Assembly: GCF_017347585.1 (NCBI RefSeq)
Contig: NZ_AP024480.1
Span: 734,001 to 798,000, forward strand
Origin: Caldicellulosiruptor diazotrophicus
GTDB lineage: Bacteria; Bacillota; Thermoanaerobacteria; Caldicellulosiruptorales; Caldicellulosiruptoraceae
Reading direction: 5' to 3'
DNA length: 64,000 nt
Part shown: positions 11,652 through 27,511 of the stretch, piece by piece
How positions within the stretch are numbered: the first letter of the stretch is position 1
How the letters are laid out: each line of letters opens with the position of its first letter
The notes under the pieces: model-generated
Databases searched by the model: none
Seen by the model: only the letters and a program-made list of their open reading frames with translations
Told to the model about the DNA's origin: nothing
Program-made: the position numbers and the translations under genes

Positions 11652-11667
11652 AAAAGGGCGGTGGCTT

Positions 11668-12090
11668 ATGAAAAGAAAGTTTTGTGGGTTTACTTTAATT
11701 GAACTTGTTGTAGTGATTGCAATAATTGGAGTAATTGTTGCAATTGCAACACCACAGGTTTTAAGGACAATCCAGAATGCTCAAAAAAGAGCAGACAGCC
11801 AAACAGCCCGCCACATTGCGTACGCATTTTTGATGTGGCAGGAAGAAAGCGGGAAGAGCTTGAGTGAAATTATTCCAGATGCTAATTTCCACAAAATTGA
11901 TTCAGACCAAATTGGTGGCGCAAGCGGGTTTAGATTAAGTAAATATATTACAGGAAGCCTGCCAAGGCCAAGGATAAATAAAAATTATTACTTTTATTAC
12001 AAATATGAGTCGTCAGTTTTAAAGATTTATGCGGGTGATGACTCAAATAAGTGGGAACTTTTTCCTGAGTTTGATGGAAATTATAAATAA
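11668..12090 (+). CDS. Type IV prepilin
   Basis: This 140-residue prepilin has a class III signal, MKRKFCG followed by FTLIELVVVIAIIGVIV, with cleavage after Gly7 and Glu at +5. The ATG at 11668 is chosen because it puts the short leader in the normal place; an open frame reading back to 11587 overlaps pilC and is not needed. The globular part ends in a beta-rich tail with YYFYYKY. It is probably a minor pilin, since the next gene has a stronger ribosome-binding site. Release and N-methylation would be done by the peptidase encoded at 12560. Confidence 0.92.
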   Translation: MKRKFCGFTLIELVVVIAIIGVIVAIATPQVLRTIQNAQKRADSQTARHIAYAFLMWQEESGKSLSEIIPDANFHKIDSDQIGGASGFRLSKYITGSLPRPRINKNYYFYYKYESSVLKIYAGDDSNKWELFPEFDGNYK

Positions 12091-12114: not shown

Positions 12115-12570
12115 ATGATGGCTTGGCTTGTAAAGCAGGTTAATAATAAGAATAAAGGTTTTACATTGATTGAAATGGTTGTTGTTTTGGCAATAATTGC
12201 GGTACTGATTGCAATTGCTGTTCCACAGGTGTTGAAACAGATTAACAATGCAAAGAAAAACGCAGATATTGCTAATGCAAAAGCAATTGCTACGGCTATC
12301 ATGCAATGGGTAGGTGAAGGAAATTCTATAGGAGCAGATGTAAGTGGTGCTCAAGTTGATGATACAAACGGGACAGTGACATTGAACGGGCAACTTGTAG
12401 ATTTGAAAAAATATATGAATGCAGGTTCATACAAACCAAAGTATAATACAAATTATAAATTCTTTGTTGACTATACCTTGTCTGACGACAAATTGGTAGT
12501 AAAAGCTGGTCAAGCTGCTAGTTCAGCAAAAGAACTTTATCCTAATCCAGACTCAACTTATGGGCAATAA
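12115..12570 (+). CDS. Type IV prepilin, candidate major pilin
   Basis: The 151-residue prepilin has a 15-residue leader ending KNKG and the mature start FTLIEMVVVLAIIAVLIAIAVP. A consensus Shine-Dalgarno (AGGAGGT, 12098-12104) is the best in the operon, which is my reason for calling it the likely major subunit; two adjacent ATG codons (12115, 12118) are possible starts. The globular domain is Asn/Asp-rich and short, as in Clostridia pilins. Its 3' end overlaps the prepilin peptidase gene by 11 nt. Confidence 0.92.
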   Translation: MMAWLVKQVNNKNKGFTLIEMVVVLAIIAVLIAIAVPQVLKQINNAKKNADIANAKAIATAIMQWVGEGNSIGADVSGAQVDDTNGTVTLNGQLVDLKKYMNAGSYKPKYNTNYKFFVDYTLSDDKLVVKAGQAASSAKELYPNPDSTYGQ

Positions 12571-13336
12571 TTTTAATGTAGAGACAGTGATATGTGTATT
12601 TCTTTCCCTCACCCTTGGCAGCTTCCTGAATGTCTGTATATACAGAATTCCTCGGGGGGAGTCGATTGTGTTCCCCCCGAGCCACTGCCCAAAATGTAAA
12701 AAGAGAATAAAGTGGTATGATTTGATGCCCGTTATAAGCTATATAATCTTAAGAGGAAGGTGCAGGTTCTGCAAAGAGAAAATTTCTATAAGATATCCCA
12801 TTGTTGAGCTTTTAACAGCAGCAGGTGGGCTTTTGTGCTACCACAAGTATGGTTTTACGACAGAGATGTTTGTTGCTTTTTTCATTTACTGCATTCTTCT
12901 TTATATCTCAGCAGTTGACATTGACACCATGGAGATTTCAACAAAGAGCGTACTTTTGTTGTTTGCTGCAAGATGTTTGCAGATATTTTTTGAAAGAGGA
13001 GTTAGCATAAAGACTGCTTTGAGCATTTTTTCAGGAATGATTTTCTCAATGCTTTTAATTTTAATAATTTACATTCTGTCTAAAGGCAGGGCAATGGGAT
13101 TTGGAGATGTACTTTTGATTGCGGCGGGCGGAGCAGGATTTACAGCAGGAGAAGCTATTTTAGCAAATTTTCTTGCATTTGTTCTGGGAGCTGTGTTTGC
13201 AGCATTTGTATTGGTAAAGAAGAATAAGAGTTTGAAGAGCGAAGTCCCGTTTGGACCGTTTATATCCGCTGCACTGATTGTCACAATACTATATGGTGAT
13301 ACTATTTTAAAGATGTATTTAGAGTACATAAAATAG
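12560..13336 (+). CDS. pilD: Prepilin peptidase / N-methyltransferase PilD
   Basis: This membrane aspartyl protease removes prepilin leaders and methylates the new N-terminus. At 258 residues it has the N-terminal methyltransferase-type domain with two zinc-binding CxxC pairs (Cys43/Cys46 and Cys68/Cys71) and several membrane segments. The two catalytic aspartates are Asp120 in SAVDIDT and Asp183 in GFGDVLL. It should process all prepilins encoded in this operon. The start lies inside the preceding pilin gene, so the two are translationally coupled. Confidence 0.96.
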   Translation: MGNNFNVETVICVFLSLTLGSFLNVCIYRIPRGESIVFPPSHCPKCKKRIKWYDLMPVISYIILRGRCRFCKEKISIRYPIVELLTAAGGLLCYHKYGFTTEMFVAFFIYCILLYISAVDIDTMEISTKSVLLLFAARCLQIFFERGVSIKTALSIFSGMIFSMLLILIIYILSKGRAMGFGDVLLIAAGGAGFTAGEAILANFLAFVLGAVFAAFVLVKKNKSLKSEVPFGPFISAALIVTILYGDTILKMYLEYIK

Positions 13337-13373: not shown

Positions 13374-13643
13374 GTGGTGTATACAATAAAAAACTATATG
13401 GAAGAAGCAGTAGGAAACATGATAGATAAAGTTCTTGAAAACATTGATGTTTGCAAGTGTCCAAAGTGCAAACTTGATATTATGGCTTTAGCACTCAACA
13501 GACTTCCACCAAGGTATTTTGTCACAAAAGAAGGAGAGCTTTTTGAAAGACTTTCAGAACTTCAAGAACAATTTACAGTGGACATTACAGCTGCAATTGC
13601 AGCAGCAGCTTTCATTGTAAAAAGCAATCCAAAACATGATTAA
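13374..13643 (+). CDS. ComFB-like small protein
   Basis: This 89-residue protein has the ComFB family pattern: an N-terminal helix NYMEEAVGNMID, then CKCPKCKLDIMALALNRLPPRYF near 33-55 with cysteines that can bind zinc, then a helical C-terminus. ComFB was first seen in competence operons. From memory, ComFB family members in other phyla have been reported as cyclic-dinucleotide receptors; I cannot check that here. It lies between the prepilin peptidase and a pseudopilin, so it is part of the pilus operon. The start is GTG at 13374 (or the adjacent GTG at 13377), after caaggggg. Confidence 0.82.
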   Translation: MVYTIKNYMEEAVGNMIDKVLENIDVCKCPKCKLDIMALALNRLPPRYFVTKEGELFERLSELQEQFTVDITAAIAAAAFIVKSNPKHD

Positions 13644-13670: not shown

Positions 13671-14276
13671 ATGAAAAGGTTTAAAGGCTTTACCCTGCAG
13701 GAAATGGCAATTGTTTTGGCGATTTTGGCAATCCTTTTAGCAATTGCAGTTCCAAATTATATAGCGATGAAAAAAAGAGCTGATGTAAACAGTGTTGCAA
13801 CCCAGTTTGCTGCAATGATAAGAGAGCTTTATGAAAAGATTGATTCTGAGATGGAATATGACACATATACATCCGCGCCGGGTGGGCATATATCGAAGTA
13901 TTACATAAAGATTGACAACTACTACATTCCTGACCCTGTAACGGGTGAGAGGTCTTTAAAAATCCAGTTGATAAAATTCGATGCAAGTTTTACTCCACAA
14001 GAAACTGTGTTAAAAGATATAAAGTCAAAGACAGTAAAACTTCAAAATGCTTTGGGTTCATCAATATTGATGGACAGTGCCGGTGCTGTTGCAACTTATA
14101 TTACATTCAAACCTAATGGAGAGATAGTAAGATTTACAGGCTCTGTACTTGCAAGAGGAAATGTTAGCACTTTTTCTGCACAGAACAAAATTGAGGTAAT
14201 TCCCGTGTCAGGTCATGGCTACAAAAGGGTAGTAGTGCTAAATAGCGTACCACCAGGGAGCGTTGAAGTGCAATGA
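13671..14276 (+). CDS. Type IV pseudopilin / minor pilin
   Basis: The 201-residue protein has the class III leader MKRFKG and mature start FTLQEMAIVLAILAILLAIAVP (cleavage after Gly6, Glu at +5). The remaining 165 residues are a beta-rich globular domain without recognisable motif. It is likely a minor pilin that primes or caps the fibre. Its stop overlaps the next start by 4 nt. Confidence 0.88.
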   Translation: MKRFKGFTLQEMAIVLAILAILLAIAVPNYIAMKKRADVNSVATQFAAMIRELYEKIDSEMEYDTYTSAPGGHISKYYIKIDNYYIPDPVTGERSLKIQLIKFDASFTPQETVLKDIKSKTVKLQNALGSSILMDSAGAVATYITFKPNGEIVRFTGSVLARGNVSTFSAQNKIEVIPVSGHGYKRVVVLNSVPPGSVEVQ

Positions 14277-14758
14277 AGAGAGTTTTAAAAGGTTTCACAC
14301 TTATTGAAATAATAGCTGTTGTTGCAATTGTTGGGATAATCGTGGTTGCTCTGTACAGCTTTTTTATCAACAATTTTAAGGTAGTTCAAGAAGAGGCAAA
14401 AATTGCTCAAATTGAGTCCCAGGCAAAAAGACTTGAGGATACAATAAAACAGTGGCTGCAGATGGCAGACCAACAGAATATATTGGTATATCCTCTTTCT
14501 AAAAGAATTGATATGATTGTGTATGAAGATAACTCTGCAGTTTCTGGCATAGCTATCTCTATAACGTTTGAACCCTCTACAAAGGGAATTAGGATAACAA
14601 AAAATGGTAATATCACTTCTTTCTTAGATGGAAAAATAATAAACTTTGATGTTGAAGATGTCACACCGCAAATAAAAATTCAATATACAGTTGATTTGGG
14701 AATTCGAGGAAAGACAAGGACATATAAAATTGTATATACCAGACGATATGACTGGTAG
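14273..14758 (+). CDS. Type IV pseudopilin / minor pilin
   Basis: This 161-residue prepilin-like protein has leader MKRVLKG and mature start FTLIEIIAVVAIVGIIVVALYSFF (Glu at +5). A helix with EEAKIAQIESQAKRLEDTI follows, then a beta-rich domain. The ATGA overlap with the preceding minor-pilin gene suggests that the two subunits are made in equal amounts and act together, as GspH/I/J-like sets do. It contains no cysteine for a disulfide-bonded D-region. Confidence 0.88.
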   Translation: MKRVLKGFTLIEIIAVVAIVGIIVVALYSFFINNFKVVQEEAKIAQIESQAKRLEDTIKQWLQMADQQNILVYPLSKRIDMIVYEDNSAVSGIAISITFEPSTKGIRITKNGNITSFLDGKIINFDVEDVTPQIKIQYTVDLGIRGKTRTYKIVYTRRYDW

Positions 14759-14788: not shown

Positions 14789-15754
14789 ATGAGTACAAAG
14801 GTTGTTATAGAACTTGGCAAAAACTATATTAAGATTGCAGAAGGGAATTTTTCAGGTAATATTCATATAAACAAACTTGCAGAAGAGCAATTAAAGGATA
14901 ATCTCATTATAAATGATATGAAGTTTGAGCCTAATCTTTTTTACGAAACTCTTGGAAATATTTTTTTGAAAAATAACTTTCCAAAAAATAATATAACCTT
15001 TGTTTTGTCAGGCATTTCAAATATGATAATAAGAGAATTGGTAGTGCCATGCCTGAATGAAGAAAAAACTTTTAACCTTATCACATTTGAAGCAAGACAA
15101 TATTTTCCTACAAGTATAGAAAATTATGTTATTGATTATAAGCAATTAAAGGTTTTCAATGAAGGAAAAACAAAAAAGCAGAAAATTTTACTTGTTGCAC
15201 TTGCTAAGAGTCTTATTGAAGATATTGTTACAGTTTCAAACAAGCTGGGGCTCAAAATAAAAAAGATTGATATTGAACCAAACACAATATCAAAGCTTGT
15301 TGATTTAGAAAGAAAAGTTAGGAAAGAAGCAGAAAAAGAGCTTATAATGCTTGTAAACATTGTACGTTCTTTCATTACTATTGTAATAATAAATCAGGGG
15401 GAAATTGTTCTTTCCAAGTCTTTTCCCAATTATGATTTAGAAAGAATGTTCAATGAGGAAGAAGACTCAGAAGCTTTCATAGAATACTTTTATACATATA
15501 CTATAAATGAGATTGTTGAGAATATTTCAAAATTCTACGAGTTTTATAGAAACAGAGAACAGGATAGCAAAGAACTTTCAAAGGTATATTTAATGGGGGA
15601 AGTTTGCCAGCATATAGATATAAGCGATATGCTAAAAACTAAGATAAACGCACAAATGGTATTGCTTACAGATCTTATATCAATTGACAAAAAAATATTA
15701 CTTACAAAAAGTGAAGTTTGTAACTATTTTACAACAATTAGTGGAATCCTATAG
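14789..15754 (+). CDS. pilM: Pilus assembly protein PilM-like (actin fold)
   Basis: PilM is the cytoplasmic actin-like ATP-binding protein that docks on the N-terminus of PilN and links the ATPases to the membrane alignment complex. At 321 residues, the phosphate-1-like start VVIELGKNYIKIAEG and the PilM-type segment FEARQYFPTSIENYVIDYKQL (about 99-119) support the call, as does its position directly before pilN and pilO. Sequence divergence from proteobacterial PilM is high. Confidence 0.82.
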   Translation: MSTKVVIELGKNYIKIAEGNFSGNIHINKLAEEQLKDNLIINDMKFEPNLFYETLGNIFLKNNFPKNNITFVLSGISNMIIRELVVPCLNEEKTFNLITFEARQYFPTSIENYVIDYKQLKVFNEGKTKKQKILLVALAKSLIEDIVTVSNKLGLKIKKIDIEPNTISKLVDLERKVRKEAEKELIMLVNIVRSFITIVIINQGEIVLSKSFPNYDLERMFNEEEDSEAFIEYFYTYTINEIVENISKFYEFYRNREQDSKELSKVYLMGEVCQHIDISDMLKTKINAQMVLLTDLISIDKKILLTKSEVCNYFTTISGIL

Positions 15755-15790
15755 CACTTTAGTTTTCATATTACTGAGGAGAGATAATGA

Positions 15791-16330
15791 ATGGCAAAAA
15801 AACTGAAAGATATAAATCTTTTGTTGGCATATGAAAGAGGGATAAAAAAGAAAGATGCAACGCTTAGAGTATATTTTTTGGTGTTTATATTGGAGATATG
15901 CTTATTTGCGTTAATTGCTTCTATTTATTTGACTAAAATAATGACTACGAATAATGATATCAAAAGATTGAGTGACGAAATAAGAATAAAGCAGCAACAA
16001 ATGGTAGAAGCACAAAGACTTGTTGAGAAAAAAACACTGGATACACAAAAGAGAGCTTTACTTGAATATGTATCAAAAAACCACATAAAGTATTTAGAAA
16101 TTTTGGACAAGCTTGAGGCATTAGCACCTATAAATCTAAAGTTTGAAAGCTTGAATCTTTCAACTGAAAAAATTACATGTACAGTGAAGGCAGATACACT
16201 TGAAACAGTGACACAGTTTGTTTACAACCTTCAAACAAGTAATTACTTTATGAACGTAAATTTTAGTAGTGTAACTGGAGATGAAAGTTCAAAAACTTCA
16301 ACAATATCAGCAGACATAGCAAGGAAGTGA
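15791..16330 (+). CDS. pilN: Pilus assembly protein PilN-like
   Basis: This 179-residue bitopic membrane protein has a short cytoplasmic N-terminus KDINLLLAYERG that matches the PilM-binding INLLP-type motif. One membrane helix lies at about 26-48, then a coiled coil at about 50-80, then a small ferredoxin-like domain. PilN with PilO forms the alignment subcomplex. In an organism without outer membrane it would face the wall side of the membrane. Confidence 0.85.
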   Translation: MAKKLKDINLLLAYERGIKKKDATLRVYFLVFILEICLFALIASIYLTKIMTTNNDIKRLSDEIRIKQQQMVEAQRLVEKKTLDTQKRALLEYVSKNHIKYLEILDKLEALAPINLKFESLNLSTEKITCTVKADTLETVTQFVYNLQTSNYFMNVNFSSVTGDESSKTSTISADIARK

Positions 16331-16336
16331 GAAAAA

Positions 16337-17596
16337 GTGCAAATCACAGACAGAGATAAAAAACTTTTAGTAATTCTTGGTATGGTTATTATTGGATTTT
16401 TGTTTTATAACTTTTTCTATACTCCTTATTCTCAAAAGCTTAGTAATTTAATTTCAGAAAAGCAACAGTTAGAAAGTAAGCTAAGTGAAATAGATCAGAA
16501 GATTGCTATTTATAATCTTCAAAAACAAAAGTTAAAAGAAGTTGAAAAAGACTATATGTCTATAAGTCAAAAAATTCCGCCCAATCAAGACGAAAAATTT
16601 TCAATGCTTGATTTGCAAAGGCTTGCTCAGATGGTTGGGAGTAAAACCTCAGACTTTACATTTTCGCAAAGACAGAGCCTAAATGTTACTTATAACAATA
16701 TTAATATTGCAAAAGCATACTTTTATTCATCTAAACAAAACTGGCAAATGACATATGCTAACTTCAAAAAATTATTGTTTTTGCAAAAGGAATTTGAACC
16801 TTTGTATTCTGTCGATTCAATCTCGTTGTCAGGCGGGAATAACAACATGATAACAGCAAGTTTTGAAATTAAATTTTATGGTTTTGAAGATACGCTTGCT
16901 CCTGAAAGGAAATGGCAAAACTTTGCAATTTCATATGGTAAAGGCGATTTGTTCAGTGGTGGATCTGGGCAAAAGGCCAAGTTTATCTATACTCAAGAAG
17001 ATTTAAAAAAAAATGAAATTACAAAACAGTCATCAGCCTTAAAAGTGGAAAGAACAGATAATATGTCTTTAACAAATGCAGAAACCAGTTTTAAGTTACC
17101 ACAAAACAATAAAAATATCACTTTTAACGAAAAAAGTGCAAGCACTAAAGACCAAAGTCAATTATCAGAAGAGAAAGTAGATTTTAATAAAGCAGATTTT
17201 GTTGTAACAGTATCAACTTTATATTCTCCTACAACCAATGTAACTATTGAAAAAACTCAAAAAGGTTCAATATTTGGTGCTAAAAAGAAAAGTGAAAATG
17301 CTTTTATAACAATTAAAAAAGAAGGTGACAAGTATTATTACAGGATTGGTACTCAGGCAAGCGAATATCCCCAAGCTAATAAATTTGACATTTTGGATTT
17401 GCAGGATAAAAGCCAGATTTTAATTGTGGTATTTTCAACCCCAAGAAAATACAAAGATGATGAGAATGTAGTAACTCTTAAAGTAACTAATAGTTCTGAT
17501 AAACCAGTAAAAATTTATATTTCAGGTGATGATAAGCAAAAACCAAGAGTGAACATTGCACCAAGTGGATTTGATATTAGCGTTGTGAGAAAATAA
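16337..17596 (+). CDS. pilO: Pilus assembly protein PilO-like with extra C-terminal domain
   Basis: Residues 1-190 look like PilO: a membrane helix at about 11-31, a coiled coil at about 32-75, and a small alpha/beta domain. The protein then runs on to 419 residues, about twice the usual PilO size. The extra part has a polar low-complexity linker (about 220-285) and a beta-rich tail domain (about 290-419; KADFVVTVSTLYSPTTNVTIE and VVTLKVTNSSDKPVKIYISG) of unknown family. The start is GTG at 16337, 6 nt after pilN. The extension could contact peptidoglycan or the S-layer where Gram-negatives would use PilP/PilQ; this is a guess. Confidence 0.78.
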   Translation: MQITDRDKKLLVILGMVIIGFLFYNFFYTPYSQKLSNLISEKQQLESKLSEIDQKIAIYNLQKQKLKEVEKDYMSISQKIPPNQDEKFSMLDLQRLAQMVGSKTSDFTFSQRQSLNVTYNNINIAKAYFYSSKQNWQMTYANFKKLLFLQKEFEPLYSVDSISLSGGNNNMITASFEIKFYGFEDTLAPERKWQNFAISYGKGDLFSGGSGQKAKFIYTQEDLKKNEITKQSSALKVERTDNMSLTNAETSFKLPQNNKNITFNEKSASTKDQSQLSEEKVDFNKADFVVTVSTLYSPTTNVTIEKTQKGSIFGAKKKSENAFITIKKEGDKYYYRIGTQASEYPQANKFDILDLQDKSQILIVVFSTPRKYKDDENVVTLKVTNSSDKPVKIYISGDDKQKPRVNIAPSGFDISVVRK

Positions 17597-17615: not shown

Positions 17616-18413
17616 ATGAAACAATTAAAAGGGTTTACTCTTGTTGAGGTTATTGTGACAGTTGCAGTATTTGCACTGTTTGTCACCCCCATAGTGTTAC
17701 TTATTCAGCAGTCGTTGAAGGTAAACATTAGTGCAAAGACAAATCTTGAAGTTGCTGAAGTTATAAATCAAGCTGTTGAAAATCTTGTATATCAAAATGT
17801 TTATGGCACAGGTTCTTTGAATATAAATGGATATACAGTAAACTACGAGATTGACGATTCATTTAAAACGGGAACTATTCAAAATATTGAAAACAGCCAA
17901 ATAGATTTTAGAATATATTTAGATGCGACAGGTAAACTGACAATCGAGGATTTGGCAACTCATAATACCTATGAAAGACAAATATCTTCTAGTACATTTG
18001 ACAAACTTAGAATACAGATAAGATATGACGAAGCAACCAAGAGGGCGACATATACTTTTGTCCTAAATGGTTCACCAATTATAACTTTTTTAAGTGGAAA
18101 CAGTACAGAACCTGCCAAACTTGGAGCAGAGTTTGTATGTGACACTTTATCACATTTTCTCTATGTAGTAATTGATGGTGTGTATGACCTCTCAAATAAA
18201 CTTACTACTACTATGTTCAATCTTTGGCTGACGAATGTTAACAATAATATCAAAATCCTTGCAACAACTCCATTCATTGTCTATGATAATTCTCCGAGAC
18301 ATTCTGTTCTTACAGGCGTAGAAAGGGTAAGGCAGATTTCTTTAAAAATTTATGATTTAAATGGTCAGTTTATTAAAGAATATACAACATATTATACTCA
18401 CAGGGTGAAGTAG
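17616..18413 (+). CDS. Prepilin-like protein (PilW/PulJ type)
   Basis: This 265-residue prepilin has leader MKQLKG and mature start FTLVEVIVTVAVFALFVTPIVLLIQQ (Glu at +5). The proline after the first half of the helix and the longer globular domain resemble PilW/PulJ-type minor pilins. It lies 2 nt before the large PilX-like gene, mirroring the pilW-pilX order of other T4P minor-pilin clusters. Confidence 0.85.
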   Translation: MKQLKGFTLVEVIVTVAVFALFVTPIVLLIQQSLKVNISAKTNLEVAEVINQAVENLVYQNVYGTGSLNINGYTVNYEIDDSFKTGTIQNIENSQIDFRIYLDATGKLTIEDLATHNTYERQISSSTFDKLRIQIRYDEATKRATYTFVLNGSPIITFLSGNSTEPAKLGAEFVCDTLSHFLYVVIDGVYDLSNKLTTTMFNLWLTNVNNNIKILATTPFIVYDNSPRHSVLTGVERVRQISLKIYDLNGQFIKEYTTYYTHRVK

Positions 18414-18415
18414 AT

Positions 18416-21112
18416 ATGAAAATTGAAAGCAAACATAAAGGTTCGACGTTGGTACTTACAATAATCTTCATAGCGGTTATGTTTGTTATGTCCGTTGCTT
18501 TGATTGAAGCAGCAATATCATCACTAAAAATTAGTAAAGGCTACTATGCAAAAAACAGAGCATATTACGATGCAGAAAGTGTTTTTGAAAGAATTATATA
18601 TTATCTTGACATGGTCGCAGACAAAGCACGAAAAATGGCAGATAATTATGTTTTTATGGAAAGTGGTGTTCTTAACACTCAAAATCCAGATATTGCAAAT
18701 ATCTTAAAAGACTATCAGCAAAAGGAGAGCCAGTATTATCTGCAGTACATGAATGGTCTTATATCCAAGACTGATTATGACAATGCACTTGTTCAAATTA
18801 ATAAGGAGTACCAAGATAAAGTGAGAAAAAAATTTTTGGAAAAGTTTAAAGAGTATATGAACAATTTTTTTACAAATTCAGGTACGTTTTCTGAGAGACC
18901 TGCAATTGAGTTTACTGTTTCTGGCACCATTTATACAATTGATAACTGGAGAGGAACTTCAAATGATTTATATTCATTTATGAAAATGGTAGATTTTAAT
19001 AATCCGGAAGTTGATGTTGAAATAAGATTTGACCCTGCAACTGATATGAACCTGCACATGTCAAGTACTGATATAGAAAATCCAATTGATATTAAGATGG
19101 AAGTTGTTGTAAATTTACTAAAAGAAAAAACTAAAAGAGTTTTAAGAGCAGATTTTAGTATTTTCCCATATAAAAGTAATGCTTTGAATTTTTCTACGAG
19201 GACAATAAAGAGAAGTTTTAACCATATACTTGACTATGCAATTTTTGCAGGTAGGAACTTGATTGTTCTAAATGGTTTAAATTTGTTCAAAATAAAAGGT
19301 GGAAAGGTCTATGTGAATGGAACTGCAAATGATGTGAGATATTCAAATCCGTCTGAATATTTTGGTGGAATTTTGGCAGGCTTGACACAAACTCAGCTTG
19401 ATAATTTATCTTCTGATTCAAGAGTTAATAAAATAGATTCAATGACTAAAAATAGAATTGAAAACATCTTGAGTGGTTCGGGAGTTATAAGTGGAAATAT
19501 AAGAATTGAAAATGCACCTGTATTTGTTGGATATACTGATTTGAATCCCGAAGCACCTTCCAATCCAGTGAGGCTTATGGATAAATATTCGCTATACGGT
19601 GGGTTTGTTAAAACTTGTGCTCCTAATTCACAGATAACCATTACAGATGATGTTTATTGTCACAGTATTGTTACAGAAAATGCATCGGATAATTCTTCAA
19701 TTACAATAGGCAAAAATGCATATATCATGGACAACATCTCAATGTACGCTCAAAATAGCAACATTAATATTTCAGGCTCGCTAATTGGTCTTGGCACAGC
19801 AGATGTTCCTTACAATTACAACATGAGTTCTTCAATAGCGATAAATGAAGATACAGCAAGATTAAATATAGGAAAAAATATTGTGCTAATGGGAGTTGTA
19901 TTTGTTGATGAAATACATAGAACTGATGAAAATGGTAAGGAAAAACTTTTCAGAATGCCAGAGAGTTCTTCGCTAATGCCTAATTTTACTATCTACCAAT
20001 ATTTTAATCTTCCTATAGCAGAACTTTCTGATCTTCTTAATACTCTTGGATTAAATGGAAGTATTGGTTCTTTTACAACACTGGATTTATTTGCTTCTGA
20101 TTACTTTAAACCATTTAAAGTGAAGGTAAGTCCAACAGAGGAAGTAGAAGCAAGCTTCTATGATATGGATGTTGAAACAGTGGGTGGTTTTCCAATTTCG
20201 TCAGTAGAAAGATCAATAAACTTTGTACTTCACTATCTCACCGCGCACATAAAAGACCCTACTGATTTTGATACACAGTATAATACCGGTTCCACTAATA
20301 TAACTGTTGGTGGAGGAAATATACATTTTGACCCATCAAACCCTTATGATACAAGTTACTTTCATTATTTTTTAAATGCAAATGGTAAACTTTACTTGGC
20401 AAGAAGAATTATCAATTTTTTAAATGAACCGACTATTAATTCGACTATTGGCTCGGCAGGTACTGGTGAGTTTGTCAACTTGGGCCAGACCGTATCATCT
20501 TCAGATATATTAAGACAGTCTATAATAGACAATGTGATAGATCCAACAAAAGAAAATTATTTCAAAGAATTAAATCTTGTTGACAAAGGGTTATTAGATA
20601 ACACAAAAGATAAATTTGACTTATTTGATTTTGTCGATTTTAATCAGATTGGATCTGACCGACTTATAATAAATGATGACAAAAATCTTATTGTTATCAG
20701 CAAAAATGACGTGGAAGAAATTGATTTTGGACTTCCAAGCTATAATGGGGTTTCACTTTTAGACATAGAAAATGTTTTGATTGTGACAAAAGGCAGTGTT
20801 ATTCTAAGAAACAGTAGTACACAAGAAAAAACTCTAAAAGGAAATATAATAGCAGGAGGGGATATTGTAGTTTGTGGAAATGGTAATCTTACAATTGAAT
20901 ATAGTAAAGGCATTTCAAGCCAGCTTATGTATTACTTTAACTATGCAAACTTTAACAGCATATCAGACAGGTTGGGTCAGCTTTACAACTTCTTTATAAA
21001 GGGCATTGATACAAATGACATTATTGAAATACCATTTGTTAGTACATTTTATGAAACAACAGTAAAAACAAATATTAAGGTTAAAAGTAAAAGACAGGTT
21101 GTTAGTGATTGA
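18416..21112 (+). CDS. Giant PilX-like pilus protein, 898 residues
   Basis: The N-terminus KHKGSTLVLTIIFIAVMFVMSVALIEAA is a PilX/PulK-like class III signal and helix (no Glu at +5, as is usual for that type). The rest is far longer than a minor pilin. A helical region (about 60-150) precedes a mixed domain. Two stretches of short beta repeats rich in Asn, Ser and Ile follow, at about 400-465 and 785-830 (for example SSITIGKNAYIMDNISMYA and KGNIIAGGDIVVCGNGNLTI), which suggest beta-helix or bactofilin-like folds. No C-terminal membrane segment is evident. I infer a large tip or surface-exposed subunit of the pilus. Confidence 0.75.
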   Translation: MKIESKHKGSTLVLTIIFIAVMFVMSVALIEAAISSLKISKGYYAKNRAYYDAESVFERIIYYLDMVADKARKMADNYVFMESGVLNTQNPDIANILKDYQQKESQYYLQYMNGLISKTDYDNALVQINKEYQDKVRKKFLEKFKEYMNNFFTNSGTFSERPAIEFTVSGTIYTIDNWRGTSNDLYSFMKMVDFNNPEVDVEIRFDPATDMNLHMSSTDIENPIDIKMEVVVNLLKEKTKRVLRADFSIFPYKSNALNFSTRTIKRSFNHILDYAIFAGRNLIVLNGLNLFKIKGGKVYVNGTANDVRYSNPSEYFGGILAGLTQTQLDNLSSDSRVNKIDSMTKNRIENILSGSGVISGNIRIENAPVFVGYTDLNPEAPSNPVRLMDKYSLYGGFVKTCAPNSQITITDDVYCHSIVTENASDNSSITIGKNAYIMDNISMYAQNSNINISGSLIGLGTADVPYNYNMSSSIAINEDTARLNIGKNIVLMGVVFVDEIHRTDENGKEKLFRMPESSSLMPNFTIYQYFNLPIAELSDLLNTLGLNGSIGSFTTLDLFASDYFKPFKVKVSPTEEVEASFYDMDVETVGGFPISSVERSINFVLHYLTAHIKDPTDFDTQYNTGSTNITVGGGNIHFDPSNPYDTSYFHYFLNANGKLYLARRIINFLNEPTINSTIGSAGTGEFVNLGQTVSSSDILRQSIIDNVIDPTKENYFKELNLVDKGLLDNTKDKFDLFDFVDFNQIGSDRLIINDDKNLIVISKNDVEEIDFGLPSYNGVSLLDIENVLIVTKGSVILRNSSTQEKTLKGNIIAGGDIVVCGNGNLTIEYSKGISSQLMYYFNYANFNSISDRLGQLYNFFIKGIDTNDIIEIPFVSTFYETTVKTNIKVKSKRQVVSD

Positions 21113-21127
21113 TGAAAGTGGTATAAT
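21099..21127 (+). promoter_or_regulatory. Internal promoter for the VWA gene
   Basis: TTGTTA (21099-21104) and TATAAT (21122-21127) are 17 bp apart, with a TGG extension before the -10. The -35 lies inside the last codons of the preceding gene. The VWA gene can therefore be expressed apart from the pilus operon. Confidence 0.7.
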
Positions 21128-21215
21128 TTATATTAGAAGATATTTGAAATGGAAAAGTAATTTGTATAAGTTTAATTATAAGTGTTGGATACATTAAAAA
21201 AAAGGAGGGATTTTA

Positions 21216-23219
21216 ATGAAACGGAGATTTATGGCATGGATTGGTGTATTACTAATTTTTATGACAATTTGTAGCGGGTTTTATTACTTTTCTACAAAAG
21301 CAAAGGCAGCGGATACGTCTTCTGTGAGTATTGGATTTAATGGAGGTGTAGTTAAATCTAAAGGCTATGTAGGAAATGACATTGAAGTAAAACTCAGGCT
21401 AACACCGACAGGTTCTATAAACGTGACAAGGTCACCTGTTTCGGTAGTACTTGTTGTTGATTCTTCTGGTTCGATGAGTAGCAATGGTAAGATGACGGCG
21501 GCAAAAAATGCCGCAAAGAATCTAATTGACAGTTTTAAAAATTCTGCAAAGTCTGGTGACAAGCTTGGGATTGTTGACTTTGATACTTTTATAAATGATA
21601 ATTCCACTTTTTATATTAAAGGATTTTATTATCAAAATGGAACATGGAACAAAGGAAATTCATCTTCTATATATGGACCTTATTCATTACCGAATAATTG
21701 CACACAGAATCTCATAGATTTAACAAGCTCTTCTGCTGTAAATAACGCAAAGACATACATTGACAATATGGTTGCATCTGGCGGAACTAACATGGAAGCT
21801 GCGCTTAATAAAGCAAAAGCACTTCTTGACTCGTCACCCTCTGGAAATGACAAATATGTTGTATTTATTACAGATGGTATGCCAACATTTTATATAAATG
21901 GTACAAAAAATGGGTATCCACTTGTTGATGGACCTGGTTCTCAGCCAGATAATACTACAAAGTCAGAGACCCTTTCTGCTGTTCAAACACTTGCGCAAAG
22001 TGGAGCGAAGGTATTTGTAGTTGGAGTTGATACAACTGGTGCGGATGTTGACAAAACATTTATCGATTTGATGGCAAGTACTGCAAGCGGAAAGTCTTAT
22101 TATATCTCAAACCCAAGTGCGTTAAATTCTATTTTGCAGGAGATATTTAGAATAATAAACTTGGCAGTAACATATGATAATCTGACTGTTGAATACCCAA
22201 TTCCCTCAGGGCTTACAATAACTTCAATGCCTGCTGGCTGGAGAGTTGAAAATGGGAAATTAATAGGTACATTTAATCCTGTCACATTTGAAAATGGTGG
22301 CACAACTCCTGCTTCGCAAGAGGTATCTTTTAAGATAACATCTAACTCAGAAGGAATATATAATCTTGGGAAGGCAACACTTACATTCAGAAGATATGAT
22401 ACTTTAAACGGTGAAACCACAGGAAGCGTGGAGGCAAATCTTGGGCAGGTTGAATTTGTCAGAATGCCAGGAATTAGTGCTACATTTCAAATAGTAGGTA
22501 GTGGTAATATATATGTGCCAAATACTCAATATGATGCAAAGCTTATAATTAGCGCATTTGGTAAGTCACTTGATATTCCAACAGTCATTAATAATTTTGC
22601 TTTAGCAGTAAATGATTCATACATTGCACTGCAGAAGATTACAACCACAAATCCTTCATTTAACTACGCAGTTGATTTAGGGCCAACACCTACGAGTTTG
22701 ACTATCGATTATAAGATTACATTTTTAAGAGAAGGTACATTTAATTTTACCCCAATATTGTCTTACAGCATAAATAGTGCACCTAATTCTATGAACTTAA
22801 CACCTATTAATTTATTTGTTATTGATGCTACAAATATGATAAAAAGTTTTTCAATTACTAAAAAAATAATTTCAGATAATTCAAGCGCAAATATATCTAT
22901 AAAAGTTGATGATTTGGGACTATTTAGTTATGATTCTTCGGCTAAAATAAAGGTATATATCGAAATGAATCCTTCTGACAAACTTAATACAAACGTAACA
23001 TTTCCAATCCAGCTTGTAGTTGACAGTACTACAAGACAGCAAAATGGTTTGAGAGTATTATCAAAGACTATTACATTTAAATTAAAACCAAGTTTCACAT
23101 CAGCAACTGTGAGTTTTAATATCTCACAAATTGATATTATTAGTGGTGGTGTAACATATACCACTGCGTATGAGAAGAAGATTAATAATGTTGTTGTTAA
23201 AAAAGCTATCCTCAGATAA
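21216..23219 (+). CDS. Secreted von Willebrand factor A domain protein
   Basis: The 667-residue exported protein has a signal peptide at residues 1-31 (hydrophobic 9-24, AKA at the end). The VWA domain spans about 73-315 with a complete metal-ion-dependent adhesion site: Asp82, Ser84, Ser86 (DSSGS), Thr191 (GGTNM) and Asp220 (ITDGMP). The C-terminal half is beta-rich with likely Ig-like repeats and has no cell-wall anchor or membrane tail. Adjacent to a pilus operon, a VWA protein suggests a tip adhesin in the manner of PilC/PilY1 or VWA-bearing minor pilins of streptococci; it lacks a class III leader itself. Shine-Dalgarno aaaggaggga is strong. Confidence 0.88.
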   Translation: MKRRFMAWIGVLLIFMTICSGFYYFSTKAKAADTSSVSIGFNGGVVKSKGYVGNDIEVKLRLTPTGSINVTRSPVSVVLVVDSSGSMSSNGKMTAAKNAAKNLIDSFKNSAKSGDKLGIVDFDTFINDNSTFYIKGFYYQNGTWNKGNSSSIYGPYSLPNNCTQNLIDLTSSSAVNNAKTYIDNMVASGGTNMEAALNKAKALLDSSPSGNDKYVVFITDGMPTFYINGTKNGYPLVDGPGSQPDNTTKSETLSAVQTLAQSGAKVFVVGVDTTGADVDKTFIDLMASTASGKSYYISNPSALNSILQEIFRIINLAVTYDNLTVEYPIPSGLTITSMPAGWRVENGKLIGTFNPVTFENGGTTPASQEVSFKITSNSEGIYNLGKATLTFRRYDTLNGETTGSVEANLGQVEFVRMPGISATFQIVGSGNIYVPNTQYDAKLIISAFGKSLDIPTVINNFALAVNDSYIALQKITTTNPSFNYAVDLGPTPTSLTIDYKITFLREGTFNFTPILSYSINSAPNSMNLTPINLFVIDATNMIKSFSITKKIISDNSSANISIKVDDLGLFSYDSSAKIKVYIEMNPSDKLNTNVTFPIQLVVDSTTRQQNGLRVLSKTITFKLKPSFTSATVSFNISQIDIISGGVTYTTAYEKKINNVVVKKAILR

Positions 23220-23234
23220 AAAGTATCAAGATTT

Positions 23235-23278
23235 AAAAGAGGCTGACTTTTTCAAATAAATAGAAGTCAGCCTCTTTT
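23235..23278. terminator. Bidirectional intrinsic terminator
   Basis: Arms aaaagaggctgactttt (23235-23251) and agaagtcagcctctttt (23262-23278) form a long stem with T/A-rich flanks. It separates the convergent VWA and cyclase genes; the cyclase stop codon lies inside the right arm. Confidence 0.85.
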
Positions 23279-26200
23279 GCTTTGTTTCAAAAGAGTATCA
23301 ATTAATGATTTTATATTATGTTCACTATCAATCTTTTCAGCCCAGAAATGTGCTAATTTTATTGTTTCATCAAACTCTTTTTCGTTTCCTAAAACAATAT
23401 AAGTGTTTGCAATATCATAATATATCTTTGCAAGTTCTAAAGATGACTCTATTTGATTTGCAAGTTTCTCACAAACTTTAAGGTTTTTAAGAGCGCTTAT
23501 ATATTCTCCCTTGTGTCTTAGAACGGTTGAGTACATTCTCAAAGTTTTTATTTTATGTAATGGATTTTTTAATTGTTCGGTTATTGCAATTGCTTTTTCA
23601 ATAACCAAAATAGCATTATCGACCTTATTTTTTAAGAGGTCTAGTTTAGTTTTGGCAAGAATATACTCAAGCTCAATCCTATTTTCTTTGCTATCAGATA
23701 TAATTTTTGCAACTTCATTTAGCAGGTCATTTGCAGCGGAGAGATTACCTTTTTCAAGCATTACTTTTGCAAGTCCGATTAAAGATAAAGCTTTTTCTGA
23801 GATAAAATTGAATTTATTTGCTAGGTCTAAACTCTGTGAAAAGGAGTTATAACTTTCTATGATATCTCCTTTTTCAAGATACAATTCACCAAGATTAAGA
23901 TAAGACACACATTCTTCATAAAAGAGTTTCCATTCATCCGCATATGATAAAGCTTTTAAGAATGATTCTAAGGCTTTTCCCAAAACTCCTTTTTCGAAAT
24001 TTATTATTCCAATATTGTTTAACAAAATCAACTGAAGGTGACGGTTAGATAAAATCTTAGAAAGCTCAAATGCATCAAACATATATTTTATTGCTTCTGA
24101 TGATTTGCCTTCTTCATAGTAAAGTGTTCCAATATTTGTAAGGATTTTTGCTTTAAGCAATAAGTTTTTTGACTTATTTGCATAGTTTAAAGCCTTTTTA
24201 AGATAAAGAAATGCCTTTTTTGACTCACCAGTAAATGCATAGACAGAATAAGAGACAATATTTAAAATCTGTGCAAGTTGTTCAAAATCATCATTTTCCT
24301 TTAATGTTATTTCAAGCTGGTTTATATAATATTGCAAATCAGGTTCGCCAATGTAGCTTTTATAAAGACATAAAAGGTATAATATTCTACTTTTCTTAAT
24401 GTTTCCTTCAAAAACATAGTTTTCTTTTAATTTGTTTAAATAGGTTTTTGCTTTTTCAAAGTTACTTTGGAGGATATAACATTCACAAATTTCAGCTTCT
24501 AATAAAAATTTTTCTTCATCTGTTTTGTAAAGATTAAGAAGTTTAGTATAGTGCGAAATGGCTGCTTCATAATTTCCTAAGTTTTTTTCTGAACTTGCAA
24601 GTTGTTCTATAATGGAAGTATAAAGAGTTATTGCATCTTCAACATTAATGTTTTTAATCTCGTCAAGTAACTTATAGAGGTATTTTAAAGCATAATTTAT
24701 TAGCTGTCTTTTTTTGTACTGCATTGCAAGCTCAAAAAGGTAATTTGCACCTTTAAGAAAATTTCCTGCTTCTTTGTAATGATAAAACAATGTCTCATAA
24801 TAAATTGCTAAGTCTTCCTTAGACACTATTTTTTCGATGGTGGTCGCAATTTTCAGGTGCAAGTTTTTCCTAATGTGTAATGGAATCAACTCAAGAAGTA
24901 TTTTTACAATTTCTGGTTCAACAAATTGGTATATTTTGTCTGGAAAATTGGAGTTATATACACTATCTACAAATTTGATGAGATTTAACTTTTGTGCTTG
25001 AGTTATTAAATATGAAGGTTCCTTTGAAGGTTGAAGTATATTAAATATTATCCTGCTACTGAATCTGAAACCATAAACGGCTGCAATTTTTAAAAAATCC
25101 AATATTTCGTTTTCAACGTGAAAAATCTTGTTGAGAATAATATTAGTCTTAATGCTTTCTATATTTTTTTCGGAAAGAACAATTTTAAAAATATCATTCA
25201 ATACTATATAAAATTTGTTTACTTCTAACCATTTCAATGTTTCTAAGAGATAGTCTAATTTGCCTTCAGATATATCTATGAGTAATCTCAATGATTCATT
25301 ATCAACTTCTTTTGTATTAAAATAAATTTGAACTGCCTTTTTGATATTTTCAATTGACAATTCATTGACTCTGATGTAGTAATTTTCTGGAAAATTTCTT
25401 AATTCAGTGTTTGTTGAGAAGATAAAAAATGGCTTACTTTGTTGTTGTGATATAAAACTAACGATAAAATCTAATGATTCTTTATCTGCCAGATTTAGAT
25501 TTTCAATTATAACAACAGAAAACTCTGTTTCAAAAACCTTTTTTAAAAAAAAGGTAATAACTTCAAAAAGTTCAAACATAATATCCTCTGGTGTCATATA
25601 AGAAATGAATTCTTTAAAATCACTACTGAGATCTAAGTGAAGAATAAGTGAAAGATAGTTATAACATTTTTCGGCCATCTTGAGATTTTCTTTAAATAAA
25701 TACTCTGCAAATGATATAAGCCTATTTTTCTTTATAATTAGAGAATCTTCATAATTTACATTTAGTATTTTTAAAATTAATAACGATAAAAGATAAAAAG
25801 GTTTCTGCGCATATCTTTCTGATAAACTGATATAATAGTACCTTATATTACTTTTATCTAAATGTCTCATTATAATATTGATAATAAAATGCTTTCCACA
25901 GTTATCAGAAGATAATAATACTAAAAAATCAGAATCTTTTGAAATAATTCTGTCAATAACATTTGATGTGTAGTTGTGCAACAATACCTCAATGATGTGG
26001 TTATATTCAACTTGTTCATTAACTTTTTTAGGAATATAACATTTCACAACTTTAGATTTGTTTTTTAAATTTAGCTCAATTGGGCCAGAATATTCTATAT
26101 TTTCATATGTTTCTCTATAAATACTCTCTGATACATAAATTGTATTTGGTGGAGCAGCAGTTTGAAGTCTCTGAGCAGTATTCACAACGTCACCTAAAAC

Positions 26201-26743
26201 AGTATAGTCCTTTTCAAAAAATCCGCCAATCTTTCCCACCATAACAAAACCATAATTTATTCCAACAGAAAGAAAAAGATTAATATTTTTAGTTTTTGAA
26301 AATTCTTGTGATAACTTTATCATTTCAAGCGCACACTGGACACTTTTTAATGGTGCGTCAATTGGAGAATCTTTTAGTCCAAAAATAATGAGGGCACAAT
26401 CACCTATAAATTTATCTACAATTCCATTAAAATTGTAAACCGGTCTTAAAATATATTCAAAAAATTCATTTATCAAGTTTCTAAGTTCATCAGGAGAAAA
26501 CTTTTCAGAAAGTTTTGTGAAATCCGAAACATCAGCAAACATTATAGCTAATTTTTTAAGTTCTTCTGTTTTAGAATATTCCTGTGATTTTGAAATAAAA
26601 CTGCCACAGTTTGGGCAAAAATTAGCAAAAGAAGGGACTGGATAATTACAATTTGCACAGTACTTGTCAAATTTTATACCACATACAATGCAACTGCTAA
26701 CGAATTTTTCTTGTAACTTGTTTCCACAGTTAAAACAGAACAA
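23267..26743 (-). CDS. Zinc-ribbon / class III nucleotide cyclase / ATPase / TPR signalling protein
   Basis: The large (about 1158 residues) cytoplasmic signalling protein begins with a double zinc ribbon (FCFNCG, CIVCG, CANC, CPNC). A class III cyclase homology domain follows (about 60-240) with both metal-binding aspartates (Asp71 in FADVSDFT, Asp115 in FIGDC), the adenine-selecting Lys111 and Asp185, and the transition-state residues Asn188 and Arg192, so it should be catalytically active and make cAMP. Next is a STAND/AAA-type region whose P-loop reads SSDNCGKH, lacking the first Gly and final Ser/Thr, and whose Walker B reads VVIIENLNLAD. About ten TPR-like repeats fill 650-1150. I prefer the TTG at 26743, placed 8 nt after aaaggtg; an in-frame ATG at 26767 lacks a ribosome-binding site. 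No membrane segment is evident. Confidence 0.82.
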   Translation of the reverse strand: MFCFNCGNKLQEKFVSSCIVCGIKFDKYCANCNYPVPSFANFCPNCGSFISKSQEYSKTEELKKLAIMFADVSDFTKLSEKFSPDELRNLINEFFEYILRPVYNFNGIVDKFIGDCALIIFGLKDSPIDAPLKSVQCALEMIKLSQEFSKTKNINLFLSVGINYGFVMVGKIGGFFEKDYTVLGDVVNTAQRLQTAAPPNTIYVSESIYRETYENIEYSGPIELNLKNKSKVVKCYIPKKVNEQVEYNHIIEVLLHNYTSNVIDRIISKDSDFLVLLSSDNCGKHFIINIIMRHLDKSNIRYYYISLSERYAQKPFYLLSLLILKILNVNYEDSLIIKKNRLISFAEYLFKENLKMAEKCYNYLSLILHLDLSSDFKEFISYMTPEDIMFELFEVITFFLKKVFETEFSVVIIENLNLADKESLDFIVSFISQQQSKPFFIFSTNTELRNFPENYYIRVNELSIENIKKAVQIYFNTKEVDNESLRLLIDISEGKLDYLLETLKWLEVNKFYIVLNDIFKIVLSEKNIESIKTNIILNKIFHVENEILDFLKIAAVYGFRFSSRIIFNILQPSKEPSYLITQAQKLNLIKFVDSVYNSNFPDKIYQFVEPEIVKILLELIPLHIRKNLHLKIATTIEKIVSKEDLAIYYETLFYHYKEAGNFLKGANYLFELAMQYKKRQLINYALKYLYKLLDEIKNINVEDAITLYTSIIEQLASSEKNLGNYEAAISHYTKLLNLYKTDEEKFLLEAEICECYILQSNFEKAKTYLNKLKENYVFEGNIKKSRILYLLCLYKSYIGEPDLQYYINQLEITLKENDDFEQLAQILNIVSYSVYAFTGESKKAFLYLKKALNYANKSKNLLLKAKILTNIGTLYYEEGKSSEAIKYMFDAFELSKILSNRHLQLILLNNIGIINFEKGVLGKALESFLKALSYADEWKLFYEECVSYLNLGELYLEKGDIIESYNSFSQSLDLANKFNFISEKALSLIGLAKVMLEKGNLSAANDLLNEVAKIISDSKENRIELEYILAKTKLDLLKNKVDNAILVIEKAIAITEQLKNPLHKIKTLRMYSTVLRHKGEYISALKNLKVCEKLANQIESSLELAKIYYDIANTYIVLGNEKEFDETIKLAHFWAEKIDSEHNIKSLIDTLLKQSKRG

Positions 26744-26785
26744 TTTTATCACACCTTTAATTAGCATATATGGAAATAATAAATA

Positions 26786-26872: not shown

Positions 26873-26974
26873 GCATATGTCGAAAAGGGCAAACCTGTCG
26901 AAAGGCAGGGACGCAAAGCCATGGGCCTGTCGGAAGGAAGCTTCCTATGGTCGCCAGGCTGCCGAAACATATGC
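26873..26974 (+). ncRNA. Cyclic-di-GMP-I riboswitch (GEMM motif)
   Basis: The aptamer shows the GEMM-I hallmarks in order: aagggcaaacc, a gaaa loop, agggacgcaaagcc, gggcct, a ggaag/cttcc stem, and cgccaggctgccg. The closing helix pairs gcatatgt (26873-26880) with acatatgc (26967-26974). The cagggacgcaaagcc block contains the c-di-GMP-contacting positions. An intrinsic terminator and a strong ribosome-binding site follow, so c-di-GMP should control the secreted-protein gene at 27092 by transcription termination. Whether ligand turns it on or off cannot be read directly. Confidence 0.93.
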
Positions 26975-27034: not shown

Positions 27035-27091
27035 GTGGTAATTATTTTGGGTGCTATATTGATAGTGCCCGATAAAAGGAGGGTAGAGATT

Positions 27092-27511
27092 ATGAGTTCT
27101 CCAAAACTTAAGAAAATTTCTTTAGCAGTGTTTGTATTGATGTTGTGTTGGACAATAGCTACTTCTGTTGTTATTGCTGAAAATGAGAATCCTGTGTTGT
27201 TCAATGGTAGCTTTACAGTTACAAACGAAGGAGGAAAATTCCAGGTAGGTTTTGTTGAGATTGATTTCAAAAAAAATTCTCTACCTGATGGCATAGACTC
27301 AATTACATTTAATGCTCAAATATATGCGGAAAATGGTAATATATACATTGATTTTTCTCCTGATGCTCAATTTAAAAAAGATGTTCATCTAAGGTGCTTA
27401 GGATATGAAGGCTACATTTATGACAGGTCTGCGGGGATTAATATTTTTGTTAAGCTTAAAAAACAGCAGCTTAAAACAGATCATTTTTCGCGTTTTATTT
27501 GGGCAAGATAA
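27092..27511 (+). CDS. Small secreted protein under c-di-GMP riboswitch control
   Basis: The 139-residue protein has a clear signal peptide (residues 1-29, hydrophobic SLAVFVLMLCWTIATSVVIA). The ATG at 27092 is chosen for its Shine-Dalgarno aaaggaggg; a frame open from 27035 would overlap the riboswitch terminator. The mature part of about 110 residues is beta-rich. The pattern IDFSPDAQFKKDVHL faintly recalls ZU5-like or other beta-sandwich proteins, but I do not recognise a family. It lies between pilus/VWA genes and the GAF/SLH block, so a surface or biofilm function is reasonable inference. Confidence 0.75.
   Translation: MSSPKLKKISLAVFVLMLCWTIATSVVIAENENPVLFNGSFTVTNEGGKFQVGFVEIDFKKNSLPDGIDSITFNAQIYAENGNIYIDFSPDAQFKKDVHLRCLGYEGYIYDRSAGINIFVKLKKQQLKTDHFSRFIWAR

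Follow-up and report, generated by a model that had tools for sequence, protein, structure and literature searches.

Within the window analyzed here, a 64,000-nucleotide stretch of Caldicellulosiruptor diazotrophicus DNA (NZ_AP024480.1, positions 734,001 to 798,000 of the forward strand), a type IV pilus operon runs into the gene of an 898-residue PilX-type protein, referred to below as the giant, which is followed by the gene of a secreted protein with a VWA (von Willebrand factor A) domain. A pilus block of ~19 kb exists in two main versions, a division that is new here, and the giant, the VWA gene and a long form of PilO all belong to one of them; the co-varying block spans ~4.4-23.2 kb of the window, and genomes are called giant-type or tapirin-type after the version that they carry. 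The giant itself is a divergent tapirin, homologous to this family over its N-terminal third and encoded in the tapirin slot. The reading favored here, with a probability of roughly 0.6, is that the giant/VWA pair belongs to an alternative version of the pilus locus, that the tapirin version has replaced the giant version, and that the giant would act as a tip adhesin with the VWA protein as its partner adhesin or sensor. As alternative versions of a whole locus, the two forms offer a natural experiment on how pilus adhesins evolve together with PilO and with secreted VWA partners in Gram-positives. Tapirins are cellulose adhesins of extreme thermophiles, and their atypical form is now tied to a version of the pilus block. 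The three defining features are the following:

16337-17596, + strand: long PilO-like protein, 419 residues (T2SSM match below its cut-off)
18416-21112, + strand: the giant, a PilX-type or atypical-tapirin protein, 898 residues, 100.9 kDa (PilX_N; NF051896; hhalign)
21216-23219, + strand: secreted VWA protein, 667 residues, metal-ion-dependent adhesion site (MIDAS) intact, no prepilin start (Pfam, alignment)

The giant is a divergent tapirin

An earlier note on this DNA had described an 898-residue PilX-type protein, and its open reading frame (ORF) is indeed present, with a PilX_N match that passes the Pfam cut-off narrowly (27.1 bits vs 25.5). The frame is not a product of chance, because its orthologues are uninterrupted in three other species (897-900 residues, 71-82% identity) and another is found in a different genus of the family (861 residues, ~46% identity; PilX_N absent at E 0.1). 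A phylum sample of 199 genomes includes 88 with a PilX_N match; of the matches listed for these, the frame of the giant is the longest, with 911 codons, and the next one has 717. Mature position 5 is not Glu in any of the five giants, and the same holds for the 13 tapirins that were aligned. The interpretation of the giant as a new type of giant PilX was nevertheless dropped, since its N terminus is tapirin-like, its gene lies in the tapirin slot, and proteins of this kind are very probably already in print as 'atypical tapirins' (PMC7142884, excerpt). Taken as a whole, the earlier note is borne out in part: the pilin context, an adhesive role in so far as the giant's family is known to bind cellulose, and the linkage to the VWA gene stand, and the novel PilX does not; for binding to the S-layer no evidence was found.

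The best NCBIfam match of the giant is the tapirin family NF051896, at 56.4 bits and over residues 3-303 only; the genome search gives 57-81 bits in the five giant-type genomes, below the cut-off of 600 bits. When the five giants were aligned with thirteen tapirins in hhalign, residues 3-301 matched at 99.1% (E 7e-19), a match that also holds with a profile led by the tapirin identical to 6n2c, and controls with shuffled or reversed columns gave 0.1-0.4%. Residues ~783-840 align collinearly with the tapirin C terminus at 42% with a profile led by G005 and at 29% with one led by G006 (controls 0.1-0.2%, run against the G003-led profile only). A tapirin-family match was obtained in every one of the 13 family genomes compared, among which G000 is the window genome and G012 represents the other genus. 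The family cut-off is passed in seven of them, including G005, whose tapirin is identical to PDB 6n2c over 602 residues; G006 carries a divergent form of 709 residues at 262 bits, and the giant is the sole match in the five giant-type genomes (G000, G004, G009, G010 and G012). In 13/13 genomes the tapirin or giant gene stands at the same position beside the type IV pilus operon. Being the only tapirin relative in its genomes, the giant therefore takes the tapirin's place.

In comparison with tapirins (NF051896; PDB 4wa0, 6n2b, 6n2c), the giant shares the slot after a minor prepilin, the N-terminal ~300 residues, the lack of Glu5 and, probably, a collinear C-terminal rung. It differs in its size (898 residues vs 638-709), in residues 300-740, which are not alignable, and in being single-copy and followed by the VWA gene, not by a second tapirin. 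Tapirins have been described as cellulose-binding proteins with a beta-helix fold, with solved structures for the C. hydrothermalis and C. kristjanssonii proteins; C. changbaiensis was reported to have atypical tapirins that resemble the ones in C. owensensis and C. acetigenus, and the study of this very different form was urged (all in an excerpt of the review PMC7142884). The window giant is very probably orthologous to these proteins, as it is the sole tapirin relative in G009, G010 and G004, whose assignment to C. owensensis, C. acetigenus and C. changbaiensis, respectively, is an inferred one. The passage of the review that deals with them (PMC7142884) gives no accession, VWA partner, block replacement or long PilO.

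The two beta-repeat stretches proposed in the earlier note are plausible at most: a single-sequence AlphaFold2 model of the giant places strands at ~397-452 and 749-828, with a local pLDDT (per-residue confidence score) of ~40-63. Wider scans of genomes and viral contigs with the five-giant alignment yielded no match, in sets that probably do not contain the near genomes.

The pilus operon of the window

The giant had been taken for a pilin-type protein, and it does lie within a complete type IV pilus operon, in the order PilB, PilT-like ATPase, PilC, two pilins, PilD, ComFB, two minor prepilins, PilM, PilN, PilO-like protein, minor prepilin and giant. The remaining features of the block are listed here:

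4480-7554, + strand: 1024-residue protein with an N-terminal receiver domain, opening the co-varying block (Response_reg, 100.4 bits)
7604-9301, + strand: PilB with an MshEN domain (T2SSE and MshEN above cut-off)
9365-10420, + strand: PilT-like ATPase, named by size and order
10440-11651, + strand: PilC (T2SSF above cut-off)
11587-12090 and 12115-12570, + strand: two prepilins, major-pilin-like by position (N_methyl above cut-off)
12560-13336, + strand: PilD prepilin peptidase (Peptidase_A24 above cut-off)
13374-13643, + strand: ComFB (ComFB domain above cut-off)
13671-14758, + strand: two minor prepilins with GFTLxE starts
14789-17596, + strand: PilM, PilN and the long PilO-like protein (PilM_2 and PilN above cut-off, T2SSM under it)
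17616-18413, + strand: minor prepilin of 265 residues with a GFTLVE start, just upstream of the giant
21099-21127, + strand: promoter-like site between the giant and the VWA gene (TTGTTA-17-TATAAT, with TG before the -10)

The giant gene begins 2 bases after the stop codon of the 265-residue prepilin. For this protein, the prepilin character claimed before is sustained by the GFTLVE start and an N_methyl match of 26.0 bits over a cut-off of 21.2; the label PilW/PulJ-like comes from position only, and the best NCBIfam name, ComGE, falls under its cut-off. The first of the two major-pilin-like prepilins probably starts further downstream than the TTG given for it (11587).

Outside the tapirin slot, the two versions also differ in PilO, whose ORF has 416-423 residues in 5/5 giant-type genomes vs 214-220 in 8/8 tapirin-type genomes. 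The last ~210 residues of the long form are missing from the tapirin-type genomes, and this extra part has no Pfam match above cut-off. The protein that opens the block, in which ~900 residues are without a Pfam match, is 49, 87 and 82% identical in G004, G009 and G010, respectively, and shows 32% over a partial match in G012; identity is 31-32% in seven tapirin-type genomes, and no match was found in G005.

The tapirin block has moved between species

The contrast between the block and its surroundings was followed gene by gene. Of the 14 flanking genes between positions -7408 and 3540, 13 in G003, 11 in G007 and 14 in G005 are 92-99% identical to those of the window genome, and all three of these relatives are tapirin-type. 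From 4480 onwards, identity of the pilus block to the window drops to ~30-81% in tapirin-type genomes, with PilB and PilT the highest. In a tree of ten flanking genes from 12 genomes (the G006 flank is located elsewhere and was left out), giant-type and tapirin-type species stand side by side, and a single clade for the genus's four giant-type species is rejected (log-likelihood 1985 lower, p 0.0003 in the approximately unbiased (AU) test), as is a clade that includes G012 (1982 lower, p 0.0002). A tree of rpoB also scatters the giant-type species, in agreement with the flanks. In a tree of five cassette genes, on the contrary, the four giant-type species form one clade with 100/100 support.

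The same discordance is manifested in pairwise protein identities of flank and cassette. Where the version differs, close relatives diverge in the cassette (flank/cassette 97.2/56.7% for G004-G008, 95.1/56.2% for G009-G002, 94.5/55.5% for G000-G003 and 95.7/56.7% for G000-G005); where both carry the tapirin version, remote relatives are far more alike in it than in the flanks (77.5/92.9% for G008-G003, 77.0/96.0% for G011-G003 and 77.4/96.2% for G008-G002). At four-fold degenerate sites, with a cassette of six genes, the tapirin-type pairs behave likewise, with flank/cassette identities of 50.1/81.6% (G008-G003), 49.1/85.0% (G011-G003) and 49.7/88.2% (G008-G002). The genomes that share the tapirin block are thus far older than the block itself, which has therefore been transferred between species. 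Among giant-type genomes, the four-fold values are 49.1/46.3% for G004-G000, 49.6/46.2% for G004-G009, 50.4/48.6% for G004-G010, 79.4/61.6% for G000-G009, 78.3/65.8% for G000-G010 and 78.6/73.3% for G009-G010. This divergence bears no trace of recent transfer, so that the giant block looks vertically inherited, and a first reading in which it was the giant block that moved between species was dropped after the four-fold check. Since the giant is also found in G012, of another genus, the giant version looks the older one in the family.

Judging from these sequence comparisons, tapirin blocks appear to have replaced the giant block, by exchange within conserved flanks, in several genomes, including G008 (the sister of G004), G002 (the sister of G009) and the pair G003 and G007. 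G005 and G006 have divergent tapirin blocks, on long branches, that are separate from the one that spread. In G001, flanking identities between ~-2252 and 3540 are like those of the other species group, and this switch is likely a recombination footprint next to the pilus block, as if flank had been imported together with the block. Strains of A. acetigenus have an average nucleotide identity of at least 97% (PMC10434631, excerpt), and the version of the block may differ even within one species, given a tapirin structure from strain kristjanssonii vs the giant alone in G010, inferred to be acetigenus. A literature search combining Caldicellulosiruptor with type IV pilus and horizontal listed no work on the pilus locus, the primary tapirin papers being outside that search.

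The VWA protein and the slot behind the giant

The secreted VWA protein matches VWA_2 (52.2 bits) and VWA (46.1 bits), both above cut-off, and the metal site described as intact by the earlier note is kept: DSSGS (82-86), T191 and D220 are invariant in 4/4 orthologues. Pfam finds no N_methyl, PilX_N or SLH (S-layer homology) match in it, and no PilY1/PilC C-terminal domain among matches to E 0.1, by which its identification as a PilY1 orthologue was ruled out. Across 18 genomes searched, the gene is found in G000, G004, G009 and G010, that is, in four of the five giant-type genomes, and in all four it lies directly behind the giant, so that the linkage postulated before is maintained in relatives. 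Of the other 14 genomes, G001 and G006 show weak partial matches at other genomic positions, and the remaining 12 show none. In the gap of ~100 bases between giant and VWA gene, otherwise diverged, the -10 part of the promoter-like site, GTGGTATAA, is invariant in 4/4 genomes. The site is weak alone, as the promoter scan returned 59 matches vs 54 in shuffles, and the scan for promoters and terminators gave no clear excess over shuffles.

The content of the slot behind the PilX-type gene varies. In G012, a secreted 1117-residue DUF5057 protein occupies the place of the VWA gene. A second tapirin fills the slot in G001, G002 (with two other ORFs between the first and the second), G003, G007 and G008, and a broken one in G011; nothing comparable is found in G005, and in G006 a 1737-residue multidomain enzyme with glycoside hydrolase (GH) and carbohydrate-binding module (CBM) domains, GH10-CBM3-GH5, lies directly behind the divergent tapirin (L057 989-6202). 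DUF5057 was detected in two of the 199 phylum genomes, both times in a type IV pilus locus beside a gene with a PilX/GspK-like start, the latter under the family cut-offs. A family of pilus partners is possible in the three secreted DUF5057 proteins of 1117-1547 residues, from these two genomes and from G012, each linked to a PilX-like gene in a type IV pilus locus:

L119, 7138-11781
L120, 7006-11613
L063, 3946-7299

The VWA protein was also compared with the DUF5057 partner of G012, and homology of the two was rejected, as none of the segments tested supports it (0.1-1.1%, like controls). Elsewhere in the phylum, no VWA gene linked to PilX_N was found in 40 loci (from 39 of the 88 PilX_N genomes plus G058), a weak negative obtained with a hidden Markov model from four close sequences and a motif search, with no outside positive control. 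The term DUF5057 does not occur in the literature searched, and the combination of Caldicellulosiruptor with von Willebrand returned only papers that are unrelated by title or start of abstract, in a search that lay outside the primary tapirin papers.

SpaC is a sortase-assembled tip pilin. Its VWA domain (6m3y, 6m48) is the closest solved one by sequence (E 4.5e-6 over 39 residues), but no sortase-assembled architecture was found here. Like PilY1, which works with PilX or other minor pilins (PMC7541494; PMC9210963, excerpts), the window protein is a separate secreted VWA protein encoded beside minor pilins; unlike PilY1, it has no PilY1 C-terminal domain and is not conserved with the pilus outside the giant version of the block. 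With PilB of Streptococcus sanguinis (PMC8179133, excerpt) it has in common a VWA module with a metal site in a Gram-positive pilus system, except that there the module lies inside the pilin and here it is carried by a secreted protein of its own, which has no prepilin start. By analogy, the nearest working models would be the PilY1-minor-pilin complexes of Myxococcus (PMC7541494, excerpt) and S. sanguinis PilB (PMC8179133, excerpt), with the VWA protein in neither family.

Some minor features of these proteins can be added. The five giants are acidic (isoelectric point 5.0-5.1) and the four VWA proteins basic (8.5-9.2). Short basic-hydrophobic C-terminal tails (RRQLIK, RRNIVxK, KKAILR, KKMILR) are present in the G012 giant, in most tapirins and in both partner proteins (VWA and DUF5057), the ending VKKxxLR being common to the VWA protein and the DUF5057 partner of G012. 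In the remaining four giants the last residues are KRQVVSD or KRQVVND.

Proposed function and alternative explanations

Prepilins are processed by a prepilin peptidase, and a large GspK/PilX-type subunit without Glu5 occupies the filament tip. By analogy, PilD (12560) would process the giant, which, with 100 kDa and no Glu5, could be placed at the tip as GspK/PilX-type subunits are. Its putatively beta-rich C-terminal two thirds might then bind insoluble plant polysaccharide, in the way that tapirins bind cellulose, and the secreted VWA protein may be a second, metal-dependent adhesin or sensor used together with the giant, standing in for the second tapirin. What the pili stick to would then change whenever the block is exchanged. 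This functional part of the interpretation is independent of the direction of transfer.

Several observations weigh against the interpretation. At the level of the giant, residues 300-560 match tapirins at 0.3-2.1% and residues 560-740 at 0.4-0.7%, which is no evidence of homology (controls 0.1-0.4% for both segments and up to 3.4% for 260-560); the G003-led profile gives the C-terminal part only 5%, in a non-collinear place; a direct search for a solved relative returned none; and two single-sequence AlphaFold2 models, with a pLDDT of 35.1 (whole giant) and 38.7, lend no support to a beta-helix. At the level of the locus, G012 carries the giant without the VWA gene, and where the VWA gene is present it comes with its own conserved promoter-like site. 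Regarding the trees, joining G012 to the four giant-type cassettes is neither supported nor rejected (AU p 0.42), and the rpoB tree was already known when the AU tests were run. Finally, GH48 and CBM3 are present in eight of the 13 genomes and missing from G000, G005, G009, G010 and G012, hence from four of the five giant-type genomes, so that cellulose may not be the ligand. The distribution of GH48 (1/5 giant-type vs 7/8 tapirin-type genomes, Fisher p 0.032) ignores kinship and is not used as support. In favor of the interpretation, the giant and VWA genes of the giant-type genome G004 adjoin the GH48/CBM3 cellulase cluster.

A possible but rather doubtful alternative is that the giant is a stand-alone adhesin held in the membrane, which uses a prepilin-type signal and never enters pili, and that the VWA protein has an independent function. 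The conserved promoter-like site of the VWA gene fits with this idea, and tapirins are called cellulose-binding with no mention of pili, the words pilus and pilin being absent from the review concerned (PMC7142884). Against it stand the giant gene starting 2 bases behind a prepilin stop within a full pilus operon, the co-variation of the giant with the form of PilO, and the prepilin peptidase encoded in the same operon. It is unlikely, too, that giant and VWA protein form a tip complex of the PilX/PilY1 kind dedicated to assembly priming and surface sensing, in which the bulk of the giant would be a stalk crossing the S-layer instead of a binding domain. The operon does encode four minor prepilins, the last without Glu5, an arrangement like that of PilVWX/GspHIJK sets. 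In Myxococcus, PilY1 and four minor pilins make up a priming and tip complex (PMC7541494, excerpt), and the VWA domain of PilY1 has been modelled as a force sensor acting via PilO (PMC9210963, excerpt), the protein that differs between the two versions here. However, the VWA protein is not a PilY1, and its absence from G012 and from tapirin-type genomes means that it is not required for pilus assembly in general.

With respect to the history of the locus, the giant-type block could itself be mobile and have been acquired separately by the four species, not being the older resident. The single 100/100 clade of the four blocks, which their flanks do not form, would agree with this, and so would PilT and the first pilin of G004, whose identity to the window (96% and 93%, respectively) exceeds the 60-91% of the flanking genes. 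The other block proteins of G004 are, on the other hand, 49-89% identical, like its flanks; its four-fold identities to G000, G009 and G010 are about the same in block and flank; and the giant is also present in another genus, all of which makes this scenario highly improbable.

Riboswitches and neighboring genes

Cyclic di-GMP (c-di-GMP) riboswitches accompany both versions of the locus. The one in the window lies outside the co-varying block:

26879-26967, + strand: c-di-GMP-I riboswitch (RF03167, 74.7 bits; genome search with RF01051)

Lying 3.7 kb downstream of the VWA gene, it is the only riboswitch of this class found in the window genome, where 150 of 202 first-look candidates were scored, and it precedes a secreted-type ORF of 158 residues (27035-27511), an arrangement seen in three giant-type genomes. 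In 6/6 two-tapirin genomes, a c-di-GMP-I riboswitch is found immediately before the second tapirin (the broken gene in G011), and in seven genomes one stands before the first cellulase of the neighboring cluster; the cellulase start was read in six of these seven, that of G011 was deduced via the GH48 frame, with GH9 tested in G003 alone. In G005 the riboswitch has no clear target. There are at least 33 c-di-GMP-I riboswitches in the 13 genomes, with one each in G000, G006 and G010. Those of the relatives were located as follows:

L054, 10714-10803 and 17349-17438: c-di-GMP-I riboswitches
L058, 7527-7616 and 1563-1652: c-di-GMP-I riboswitches
L059, L062, L052, L053, L055, L056, L060 and L061: further loci with c-di-GMP-I riboswitches

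Domains related to c-di-GMP occur in the operon itself, namely MshEN on PilB and ComFB. In pure culture, c-di-GMP has been reported to be higher in C. owensensis than in C. kronotskyensis, with no locus given in the excerpt available (PMC9933333). Caldicellulosiruptor, riboswitch and c-di-GMP were not found together in the literature searched, and the main text of a paper on regulation in C. bescii (PMC8579813) mentions no riboswitch, c-di-GMP or tapirin. One might imagine a touch-and-grip module, in which the giant and the VWA protein, both at the tip, recognize a plant polymer, the PilO extension peculiar to this version turns tension into a change in c-di-GMP (PilB MshEN, ComFB), and the riboswitches co-switch attachment and cellulase. 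Such a scheme is quite improbable; if it were true, replacement of the block would re-target the whole substrate-response program.

Other elements of the window are mentioned for completeness. A c-di-AMP (ydaO) riboswitch is located at 766-924 (89 bits). An adenylate/guanylate cyclase with tetratricopeptide repeats (23267-26767) faces the VWA gene in convergent orientation, and 29671-31398 encodes an SLH protein; among the regions compared, both are found elsewhere only in G009 and G010.

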